Positions 7,606-11,449 of a DNA stretch of 36,330 bases are shown in pieces (the stretch's first letter is position 1; the number at the start of each line of letters is the position of its first letter). The stretch is from Deltaproteobacteria bacterium RBG_16_44_11 (GTDB taxonomy: Bacteria; Desulfobacterota; Syntrophia; Syntrophales; Smithellaceae). A program made the translations under genes and the position numbers. Where the stretch lies: NCBI GenBank assembly GCA_001797845.1, contig MGQN01000035.1:54589-90918 (forward strand), given 5' to 3'. A model generated the notes under the pieces. The model made no database searches. It was not told the origin of the DNA and worked only from the letters and a program-made list of their open reading frames with translations.

Positions 7606-7947
7606 AAATTTCTTCCTTTCTTTTTGGGATTATATTTGAAGTATTTCAAATGTTTTCCCTTATACATAAAGCCCAACAATTAATATACGAACTTCGCTTT
7701 TTCCGATTATTTGAGTATCATTTTAGCACGAATCATTTTTTTCCAAAAGTGAAAAACATGGAAAATTTGTCCAAGATTATTGCTTGAAATCAAGCAGTAT
7801 CTGCACTGGCGACATTACAGTTGTGTTCCGAAATTGAGCGCGGTTCTATCCATACTGAAACCAAGTTTTGTATGAACCAATTAATGGTCAAGGACAAAGC
7901 AATGATTAAAATTGATCTTTCGGGCGGAATATTGTACAAAATCCGTC
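7606..7947. other. Gene-free interval upstream of the HD gene
   Basis: This 342-base stretch is AT-rich. It holds the 5' end of the cassette (to 7676) and then about 270 bases with no credible gene. The perfect 16-base palindrome TGCTTGAAATCAAGCA (7781-7796) is the only clear structure in the second part. It could be an operator for the HD/nrdD genes or a relic of the cassette's insertion context. Confidence 0.5.
7629..7657 (-). promoter_or_regulatory. Candidate promoter with operator palindrome for the cassette genes
   Basis: On the minus strand a perfect TATAAT (-10, 7634-7629) lies about 24 bases upstream of the GTG start. The perfect inverted repeat ATTTGAAGTATTTCAAAT (7634-7651, 7-base arms) fills the spacer just upstream of it. 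The -35 region is weak (AAAACA at about 7656-7651). The layout suits a repressor-controlled, possibly autoregulated promoter inside the cassette. Confidence 0.45.
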
Positions 7948-9369
7948 ATGCAAAAGATCAAAGCTGAGAATCATAATATTTATAAAGGAATGGCGCTTAT
8001 TGCCGATCCCATTCACCAGTACGCTCTTTTTACCGTACCTGAAGATAAGACTCCTTCCGAAATCACGGAGAAGGATCTGATTGATTCTCCCTGGACGCAA
8101 AGGTTAAGAAGGATTTATCAATTGCAAAGCGCGCGCTGGGTCTATCCGGCGGCGGAGCATACGCGGTTTCAGCATTCTTTGGGGGCAATGCACGTGGCCG
8201 GAGAATTCGCCAAAAGCATTTATCCCAGTTTATCCGGCGTCTGTAAAGATACACCCTCCCAAAATTATGTGGAAGAGCTGATGCGTCTCGCCGGTCTTTT
8301 GCATGATGTGGGGCATGGGCCTTATGGACATTTTTTTGATGATAATTTTTTGAATAATTTTAATTTAACACATGAAATAGTAGGACAGAATATTATTGTC
8401 CAAAAGCTCGGTGCTGATATTTCCTGCATCAAGCGTAGTCCTTCCGGCGCGTTTGGGCGCGGCGAGGTGTTGGATGCCCGCCGGATAGCTTATTTGATCA
8501 GGATGCCCGAAGCCAAAGAAATCGACAGACAACCACGCTGGCTGCAGATGTTGCGGCAATTGTTTTCCGGCATTTATACTGTGGATAATCTTGATTATGT
8601 TCAGCGCGATGCTTACATGACGGGTTTTTCCCTGGATATGGTGGATATTCCCCGCCTGCGCTACTATACTTTTTTTACTAAACACGGCCTTACTTTGCAT
8701 TCATCGGGCATTTCCGCGCTGGGGCGCTTTCTCAACGCCAGGCTTAATTTATATACTAATGTTTATTTTCATCGCACCACGCGCGCTTTGGATTTGCACT
8801 TGCAGGAGATTTTCCGCGATACCATCAATTTGATTTTTCCAGGAAATCCCATCAACAAATTGGATAATTATCTGCGATGCGATGAGTGGTTTTTGTTCAA
8901 TGAAGTGCAAAGCTGGTTGGAAACAAAAGATCAGACTAAAAGAAAATTAGCGATGGAATGGAAAAAACTTCATGACCGCGAAGTAAAATGGAAGATGTCC
9001 TTTTCCGCGGAGATATCCATTGATCAAATGCATCGCGGCATCGGTTTTTCGCGGGCGTTGGATTATGAAGCCAGAATTAAGGAATGTCTGCCCAGGAAAC
9101 TTAAAGGCCTTTCCTTTAAGGTCGATTTAGCCACGCAGGACCCGCGTCCGCTCAATCCTATGGCGGAACGCGGGAAGAGGATCAATATTTATAATCCTGT
9201 TACGGAAATGACATCACCGGAGCCGCTTTTGGAAATTTATCGCTTTATCCCTGCGCGAGTCATGCACTTCAGAGTGTTTTCATTAAGCCACAACTATGAC
9301 GAAGAATTATCCGCCGCCGCGGAAAATGTTCTGAATACTATCGAATCAGTAATTCCGACGAATGTTTGA
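7948..9369 (+). CDS. HD-domain phosphohydrolase (dNTPase/SAMHD1-like)
   Basis: 473 residues from the ATG at 7948. A TTG at 7912 is in frame upstream and an ATG at 7990 downstream; none has a convincing ribosome-binding site. The metal site of the HD superfamily is complete: His76 (RFQHSLG), His119-Asp120 (LLHDVGHGPYGH) and the later Asp in VDNLDYVQRDAY (Asp213 or Asp216). This order and the LDYVQRDAY block are typical of the dGTPase/SAMHD1-related branch. The C-terminal half (about 280-473) is less conserved. The last eight bases overlap the start of the NrdD homologue, so the two are probably co-translated. This links a deoxynucleotide-hydrolysing family with a deoxynucleotide-making one. 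The substrate is inferred. Confidence 0.82.
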   Translation: MQKIKAENHNIYKGMALIADPIHQYALFTVPEDKTPSEITEKDLIDSPWTQRLRRIYQLQSARWVYPAAEHTRFQHSLGAMHVAGEFAKSIYPSLSGVCKDTPSQNYVEELMRLAGLLHDVGHGPYGHFFDDNFLNNFNLTHEIVGQNIIVQKLGADISCIKRSPSGAFGRGEVLDARRIAYLIRMPEAKEIDRQPRWLQMLRQLFSGIYTVDNLDYVQRDAYMTGFSLDMVDIPRLRYYTFFTKHGLTLHSSGISALGRFLNARLNLYTNVYFHRTTRALDLHLQEIFRDTINLIFPGNPINKLDNYLRCDEWFLFNEVQSWLETKDQTKRKLAMEWKKLHDREVKWKMSFSAEISIDQMHRGIGFSRALDYEARIKECLPRKLKGLSFKVDLATQDPRPLNPMAERGKRINIYNPVTEMTSPEPLLEIYRFIPARVMHFRVFSLSHNYDEELSAAAENVLNTIESVIPTNV

Positions 9370-11449
9370 TATGCAAGAAATTTCCGAAACTACAGATATT
9401 ACTCTTTTTGTCCGTACCTCCGGGGAGGAAATAGCTCCCTGGAACCGCCAGCGCATTGTCGATGCTCTGGTGCGGGAAGCGGATATCGATGATCACCTAG
9501 CTGTGCAAATATCCAAAGAAGTGGAAAAGCAAATTATTTCTTCGGGGATTGGTTTGCTCACGACATCCCTCATTCGTGAGTTGGTTAATGCCCGACTCAT
9601 CGAGAGAGGGCTGGAGAAAGAACGAAGGCTGCACGGCCGTTTGGGCTTTCCTCTTTATGACGTGCGGCAGTTAATTTTACACCAGAACAAGGAAAGCGCC
9701 AACACTCCTCATTCTCCCGAAGGCACGAATTTAATCTTTGCCGAAGGAATAAAAAAAGACTTTTCTCTTTACGATGTTTTTTCCACCGATATCGGGGATG
9801 CGCATGCCGCGGGTGATATTCACATCCACGGATTGGGTTACATCGATCGCCCTTACAGTTGCTGTCAATCGTTGGAATATCTCAAGAGTAACGGCTTGAA
9901 ATTTCCTTATGCCATCAATTCCGCCAAACCCGCCAAATACGCAGAGGTGTTATTGCTGCACATGGTGCGCTTCAGCGCGATTTTACAAGGACATTTTACC
10001 GGAACAATTGGCTGGGACGCGCTAAACATTTCCTTCGCGCCGTATTTGGTTGATATGACCGATAAAGAAGTGCAGCAATTTGCGCAAATGCTGATTTATG
10101 AATTCTCGCAGCTTTCGGCTACGCGCGGCGGGCAGGCTTTATACACCGATATGCACATCTATTATGAAATACCGCCGCATTGGGCGAATCTTCCTGCGAT
10201 AGGTCCCGGAGGAAAACCAACAGGGAAGACTTATGGACAATACGTTAGCGATGCTCAGCGCCTGGCTTTGGCTATCCTGAAAGTTTTTAAAAAAGGCGAT
10301 GCGACAGGAAAGCCTTTTATTCTTCCCCGTCCGCTTTTGCATATAACCGATGCTTTTTGGAAAGCAAAAGATGCGGAAGATTTCTTAGAGCATGCCTGTG
10401 AGGTAGCCAGTCTCAAAGGAAACAGTTGCTTTATTTTCGATAGAAATGAAAACGATTTATCTTTTGCCTGCTGCCGGGCAGGGTATAGAAGCGATGCCGA
10501 CTACAGAGTAGAATTGAAGAAACCATGGCTGATACGCAGTGCCGCCATTCAAAGCGTAACCTTAAATTTACCGAGGCTCGGATACAGAGCTGACGGTAAT
10601 GAAGAAAGATTATTTGCCCTGCTTACTGAATTTACGGCAAAAGCGGTAAAGGCGCACATCCAGAAAAAAGATTTTCTGGAAAAGCTTCTTTCTTACGCCG
10701 ATAAGGGACCTCTGGCCGTACTGGCTATGAACCATGACGGCTTCCCTTTTTTAAGAATGAACCGGGCTTACTACATTATCGGTCTGGCGGGTTTAAATGA
10801 GCTTGTGCAAATACATATAGGCAGCCAATTACACGAATCGCCGGAGGCTCTGGCCTTTGGCCTGAAAGTTGTGGACTACTTACAGCGTGAGGCTGGATTC
10901 TTAAGTGAAAAACTGGGAATAAAATTTGTGCTGGAGCAGTCGCCCGCGGAAACCACCTCTTATCGCTTCGCGAGGCTGGATTTAAAATATTTTTCTCCGG
11001 CCGCCGGACGTTTTGTAAAGGGTGATATTGCCGAGGGCGCGATTTATTACACCAACTCTACGCGATTGAATGTTTCCGCGAATGTGCCGCCCTTGCAGCG
11101 AGTAATCTCGGAAGGGCTTTTTCATAAATATCTGGAGGGAGAGGTTATTTCACATCTGCAATTGGGCGGCGAAAAGCCGGACGAAAAAGAATTGTGCGAA
11201 TTTATCCGGAAAGTGTTTGATAATTCCGCTAACCGGCAGATTGATTTTTCCCCCGAATTTACTTCCTGCTCCTCCTGCGGCAAGACAGCTTCCGGCTTGA
11301 ATTCAACATGCGTTTATTGCGGATCAAATGAAGTAGAGGGCATCGCGCGGCTGACAAAATATTTCAGTAAAATTTCTGGTTGGAACAAAGGTAAACTTGC
11401 TGAGCTTAAAAATAGAAAGGTGAACAAGAACTTTAAGATAAGCGATTGA
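9362..11449 (+). CDS. nrdD: Anaerobic ribonucleoside-triphosphate reductase homologue lacking the radical glycine
   Basis: 695 residues. An N-terminal ATP-cone (about 14-100) gives allosteric control. The catalytic barrel follows, with the CCR motif (Cys370, Cys371) where class III enzymes hold the thiyl-radical cysteine. The C-terminal zinc site is complete (Cys636, Cys639, Cys650, Cys653). Just after it, class III enzymes carry R-x-x-G-Y, the Gly being the radical carrier. Here the aligned segment is ARLTKYFSKISGWNKGK, with Lys666 (AAA, 11357-11359) at the Gly position, although the flanking R, Y and W-N-x-G-K are kept. A Gly-to-Lys change needs two base changes, so a single read error is unlikely. 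No nrdG activase is nearby. It may be inactive, regulatory, or depend on another radical source. The start overlaps the HD gene by eight bases. Confidence 0.88.
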   Translation: MFDMQEISETTDITLFVRTSGEEIAPWNRQRIVDALVREADIDDHLAVQISKEVEKQIISSGIGLLTTSLIRELVNARLIERGLEKERRLHGRLGFPLYDVRQLILHQNKESANTPHSPEGTNLIFAEGIKKDFSLYDVFSTDIGDAHAAGDIHIHGLGYIDRPYSCCQSLEYLKSNGLKFPYAINSAKPAKYAEVLLLHMVRFSAILQGHFTGTIGWDALNISFAPYLVDMTDKEVQQFAQMLIYEFSQLSATRGGQALYTDMHIYYEIPPHWANLPAIGPGGKPTGKTYGQYVSDAQRLALAILKVFKKGDATGKPFILPRPLLHITDAFWKAKDAEDFLEHACEVASLKGNSCFIFDRNENDLSFACCRAGYRSDADYRVELKKPWLIRSAAIQSVTLNLPRLGYRADGNEERLFALLTEFTAKAVKAHIQKKDFLEKLLSYADKGPLAVLAMNHDGFPFLRMNRAYYIIGLAGLNELVQIHIGSQLHESPEALAFGLKVVDYLQREAGFLSEKLGIKFVLEQSPAETTSYRFARLDLKYFSPAAGRFVKGDIAEGAIYYTNSTRLNVSANVPPLQRVISEGLFHKYLEGEVISHLQLGGEKPDEKELCEFIRKVFDNSANRQIDFSPEFTSCSSCGKTASGLNSTCVYCGSNEVEGIARLTKYFSKISGWNKGKLAELKNRKVNKNFKISD

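Follow-up and report, generated by a model that had tools for sequence, protein, structure and literature searches.

Genes and features of the locus

The window, meaning the whole 36,330-nucleotide stretch that was analysed, carries on its forward strand a gene for an NrdD-like protein and, directly upstream and overlapping it by 8 bp, a gene for an HD-domain protein. The features considered here, in window coordinates, are as follows:

7912..9369, + strand: gene for an HD-domain (SAMHD1/EF1143-like) phosphohydrolase; PF01966 and PDB matches; exact start uncertain
9362..11449, + strand: gene for a putative NrdD-derived pseudoenzyme; open reading frame of 695 aa; PF13597, TIGR02487 and AlphaFold2 model
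9392..9661, + strand: ATP-cone region, residues 11-100; PF03477
9695..9697, + strand: codon 112, Ser where the NxN substrate flap has its first Asn; orthologue alignment
9857..9859, + strand: codon 166, Ser replacing the reductive cysteine (T. maritima Cys125); phmmer alignment, RPYS against MPYC125
10469..10477, + strand: C370-C371-R372, CCR motif of the finger loop; present in the window, replaced or deleted in most glycine-less relatives
11267..11320, + strand: Zn site C636, C639, C650 and C653; invariant in 104/104 orthologues
11357..11359, + strand: codon 666, AAA, coding for Lys where working class III enzymes have the radical glycine; orthologue and PDB-chain alignments

In profile searches, the 695-aa product matched PF13597 at 389 bits and TIGR02487 at 334 bits, the latter above the curated cut-off of 326, so that automatic annotation would name the gene a working anaerobic reductase. 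The N-terminal ATP-cone matched PF03477 with an E-value of 6.9e-5 and 23.7 bits, slightly below the cut-off of 25.8, and all four Zn cysteines were retained. The sequence around codon 666 reads I-A-R-L-T-K-Y-F-S-K-I-S-G-W-N-K-G-K, and comparison with PDB chains using phmmer placed K666, in a gap-free stretch, opposite Gly621 of T. maritima NrdD, and likewise without gaps opposite the Gly of the ITGY motif of P. copri NrdD, which bears out the first-pass annotation of an NrdD homologue with Lys for the radical Gly. The numbering was checked by counting along the phmmer alignment; in the T4 enzyme the reductive cysteine is Cys79. The NxN flap motif has been described (PMC11226230).

Distribution and phylogeny of the glycine loss

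The order is called Syntrophales here on the basis of record titles. The orthologue alignment comprised 104 sequences: 28 lying outside the order (27 belonging to other families of its phylum and one to Synergistaceae), with 16 glycine-bearing and 60 glycine-less ones from inside it. Residue 666 was Gly in 44 sequences, including 28/28 from outside the order, and non-Gly in 60 (K 27, Q 23, R 7, L 1, N 1, P 1); within the order, 15 families were glycine-less, and families f2, f6, f13 and f15 retained Gly. In an 86-row tree (LG), the glycine-less sequences formed one clade, corresponding to one change in the order, and a smaller tree (mixture model) recovered the same clade with an SH-aLRT of 99, both being quick trees built without bootstraps. 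The first-pass annotation had asked whether Lys was shared by a clade, and what the clade shares is the absence of Gly, in 60/60 orthologues, with K, Q, R, L, N or P in its place. A second independent loss was seen in the mixture-model tree in family f66, outside the class, whose sequence L175 has N666, S166 and no loop cysteine.

A sequencing error at codon 666 was excluded, since the residue is non-Gly in 60 orthologues from independent assemblies and 15 families. Equally, the thought that a different Gly might occupy the radical position was dropped: the nearby Gly673 is variable, being Ser in many orthologues. Internal stops were reported for homologues from one genus; in L028 and L037, the two that were read through, the stop sits at the C-terminal end and the match overruns it, so these two genes are not disrupted. 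One glycine-bearing sequence (L178 1843-3704, genome G406) matched in two parts, residues 9-364 and 465-691; the roughly 100 residues between them had no match, which may reflect a frameshift, a gap or divergence.

Other catalytic residues and regional conservation

The reductive cysteine was present in 28/28 outgroup sequences and 13/16 glycine-bearing members of the order (41/44 glycine-bearing sequences overall), and in 0/60 glycine-less sequences. The finger loop reads SECCRL in the outgroup, keeps CCR in the window, and is CCK, CGN, CNR, CG or deleted in relatives; in T. maritima NrdD, mutants showed that both SCCR cysteines are essential for activity (PMC4493059). Where the NxN flap has its first Asn, the glycine-bearing sequences have N (44/44), and the glycine-less ones have N in 37, D in 12 and S in 9 cases. 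Families f6 and f13 have lost cysteines and retained Gly, which indicates that catalysis was eroded by more than one path. The earlier view that the gene is not decaying elsewhere holds as far as fold, Zn cysteines and ATP-cone are concerned, and fails for the catalytic residues, with Ser at 166 and 112 and a CCR motif that relatives have not kept.

Conservation by region was computed as mean pairwise identity, outside the order versus within the glycine-less clade. Identity fell in the flap (0.91 to 0.80), the barrel (0.81/0.65 to 0.64/0.52), the finger loop (0.84 to 0.25), the Zn part of the C-terminal domain (0.62 to 0.50) and the radical loop (0.86 to 0.69). The ATP-cone, which governs class III activity (PMC11226230), was the sole compared region with higher conservation in the glycine-less clade than in canonical orthologues, rising from 0.63 to 0.72.

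Predicted structure

An AlphaFold2 model of the window protein, made with 47 orthologues, had a mean pLDDT of 84.9 and a pTM of 0.83, with the flap (residues 111-121) and the N-terminus poorly predicted. Its 36 best PDB matches by Foldseek were all class III NrdD, the top one being 8p2s, the ATP/dTTP/GTP form of the P. copri enzyme (E 3e-28), and the model and matches together indicate that the 10-stranded NrdD barrel fold is retained. In P. copri NrdD, substrate, flap and C-terminal domain are connected through a Glu and the Tyr that follows the radical Gly (PMC11226230). The corresponding Tyr667 and the PAE glutamate E530 are both retained in the window protein, which fits a protein predicted still to fold and move like NrdD.

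Other reductases and radical proteins

Contig C35, which carries the window, belongs to an assembly of 2.43 Mb that is 92% complete. A search of this genome found one other NrdD (C1:31145-32878), with a canonical RVVGYL and CCR and an adjoining NrdG-like radical-SAM gene, and no class I/II RNR large subunit; the window paralogue and the canonical NrdD are 26% identical. No nrdG was found at the window locus, and one lies beside the canonical NrdD. The presence of a canonical NrdD/NrdG pair elsewhere, and a glycine loss common to a clade, support the first-pass suggestion of a repurposed or regulatory paralogue. A search of the genome with PF01228 gave a single match, a full-length PFL-type glycyl-radical enzyme, and no stand-alone glycyl-radical domain.

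A YfiD-like stand-alone radical domain acting in trans was considered and rejected, as the four short C-terminal matches keep Lys, mostly have no obvious start, and look like remnants. Stray pieces that encode the final ~40 aa of the NrdD-like protein, the Lys included, occur at L043 3121-3237, L044 2963-3070 and L045 3336-3446, in genomes (G009, G011 and G023) that also carry a full copy; these 3'-end fragments are perhaps scars of insertion at the 3' end of the gene. In G021 (L046 3132-3278), the HD gene is intact, but an internal deletion has left the NrdD-like gene that follows it with ~28 residues of the N-terminus and 47 of the C-terminus.

Across 155 genomes of the class, NrdD and PF02867 lists were matched up by eye. 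Among the matches listed, a second NrdD accompanies the paralogue in nearly all carriers, in most cases scoring 590-695 bits. The glycine-less genomes without a second NrdD (G028, G050, G061, G063, G067, G080, G126, G131, G136, G150 and G154) all have a PF02867 class I/II match, and only G004, an 85%-complete MAG, has neither a canonical NrdD nor a class I/II RNR among the matches listed.

Linkage to the HD gene

The PDB matches of the HD protein are of EF1143 type and SAMHD1, and its predicted active-site residues (R85, H88, H131, D132, H154 and D228) are invariant (74/74); the product is a probable dNTPase. The HD gene lies at most 300 bp upstream of the NrdD-like gene in 53/60 glycine-less loci and 10/16 glycine-bearing loci of the order, and in 0/28 outgroup loci, with a median gap of 2 bp in the glycine-less loci; beyond the order, HD orthologues lie unlinked on other contigs. 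A downstream nrdG was found in 24/25 testable outgroup loci versus 0/64 loci of the order.

Among the 155 genomes, 116 have both the paralogue and the HD gene, 14 the paralogue only, 10 the HD gene only, and 15 neither (Fisher p 3e-7, ignoring kinship and assembly gaps). Family f19 keeps a glycine-less copy (Arg) with the HD gene absent altogether, and this, together with the HD gene standing alone in about ten genomes, means that the pair is not obligatory. Families f2 and f15, both members of the order, keep Gly, Cys166 and the HD gene, which makes the operon older than the full loss of catalysis. In several members of the order (L095 6317-9551, L094 6467-9777 and L116 7423-9342), the NrdD-like gene is followed by a putative SIS-type phosphoheptose-isomerase-like and/or GrpE-like gene, and DnaK, the SIS-type, GrpE-like and DnaK names being judged from sequence starts.

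Interpretation

The sequence evidence is strong that the gene product is a class III RNR pseudoenzyme, conserved in its clade and descended from a working reductase, and the window protein very probably carries out no class III catalysis. Purifying selection has maintained its fold, Zn site and ATP-cone, and the order has long retained the gene beside that of the probable dNTPase. The ATP-cone makes a nucleotide-sensing role fairly probable. The best explanation overall, in which we have moderate confidence, is a pseudoenzyme that acts as a nucleotide sensor with the HD dNTPase. The pseudoenzyme would be unable to reduce ribonucleotides and would bind (d)NTPs at its ATP-cone and specificity sites, signalling the dATP/ATP or dNTP state by altering its shape or oligomeric form. 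The SAMHD1-like HD dNTPase encoded directly upstream would be the likeliest receiver of such a signal, and the pair would tune dNTP breakdown, with the separate NrdD/NrdG supplying dNTPs. That the HD protein is the direct partner is our best-supported guess, put forward tentatively from the operon structure. More speculative again is the broader statement that, in one anaerobic order, an RNR may have become a catalysis-free nucleotide sensor controlling a SAMHD1-like dNTPase, the allosteric head of a synthesis enzyme coming to govern dNTP destruction. If so, dNTP sensing may be wired directly to dNTP breakdown in bacteria.

It is less likely that the pseudoenzyme regulates the canonical NrdD/NrdG or a class II NrdJ (through NrdG sequestration or mixed oligomers), or serves as a nucleotide-binding scaffold unlinked to the HD protein. 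In favour of such readings, another RNR is nearly always present alongside, and f19 retains the pseudoenzyme with the HD gene missing. Working enzymes are recognised by NrdG at the C-terminal radical loop, and this loop remains conserved here (0.69 identity). However, the pseudoenzyme is kept in genomes that have no other RNR than class I/II (G028, G050, G061 and G063), the gene linkage is to HD and not to nrdDG, and an identity of only 26% makes mixed dimers with the canonical NrdD unlikely.

A repurposed enzyme, whose barrel would run a nucleotide reaction of a non-glycyl-radical kind, possibly with the Lys, Arg or Gln at the tip of the C-terminal loop, is improbable. The barrel does keep NLPR 402-405 and E530 invariant or nearly so, and has gained new clade-conserved residues (R203, H265, R323 and T531), but position 666 varies among K, Q, R, L, N and P, and the finger loop ranges from short to missing, neither of which would be expected of an active site. 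We give very little weight to a slowly decaying pseudogene: the protein evolves 2-4 times faster than canonical NrdD, and the gene is lost or fragmentary in some genomes, yet open frames are full-length in 15 families, the ATP-cone and Zn site are strongly retained, and dN/dS (Nei-Gojobori, pairs with usable dS) is far below 1, the paralogue giving 0.06-0.18 and the canonical NrdD, taken from the same genomes, 0.03-0.05. Least credible of all is a surviving ribonucleotide reductase with its radical on a substitute residue or, as the first-pass annotation had also entertained, brought by another protein, for although stable Ala, Ser and Thr radicals are known in PFL-type enzymes (PMC11528403) and CCR is kept in the window, K, Q and P fall outside these known alternatives, Cys166 is lost in all glycine-less sequences (60/60), many of these have an altered or deleted thiyl-cysteine loop, no nrdG lies nearby, and the genome yielded no stand-alone radical domain.

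Relation to known systems

Class III RNRs are regarded as radical enzymes by definition. A clade that has dropped the catalytic residues and kept the ATP-cone would show allosteric sensing evolutionarily separated from catalysis, and would offer a natural test of the roles of the ATP-cone and C-terminal domain with the chemistry removed. Its members are probably misannotated as working reductases. Searches of open-licence papers turned up no direct precedent for an NrdD lacking the glycine, for a pseudoenzyme among class III RNRs or for an operon joining a dNTPase gene to nrdD.

With class III NrdD (the NrdDh-like subclass, of T. maritima NrdD type), the window protein shares the fold, the ATP-cone, the Zn site and a TIGR02487 score above cut-off, and the glycine-bearing orthologues also share the PY-C and CCR-type motifs; the window clade differs in having no radical Gly, reductive Cys or adjacent nrdG, and a decaying finger loop. 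Aminoacyl radical enzymes are likewise homologues of glycyl-radical enzymes without the Gly, but they are PFL-type (IPR004184), have A, S or T only, work with an activase partner and bear a radical (PMC11528403), whereas the window clade is NrdD with K, Q, R, L, N or P, and has lost the catalytic Cys too. SAMHD1/EF1143-like dNTPases and the Clover pair CloA-CloB (PMC12265719) offer the likeness of a dNTPase-type HD protein beside a nucleotide-handling partner gene; CloB is a nucleotidyltransferase, whereas the partner here is an NrdD pseudoenzyme, with no sign of phage defence. An RNR large subunit that has lost its activity and been reused is also known from the betaherpesvirus homologues (HHV-6B RNR; PMC11772975), which are viral and have host-immune targets, whereas that of the window is bacterial, chromosomal and class III.
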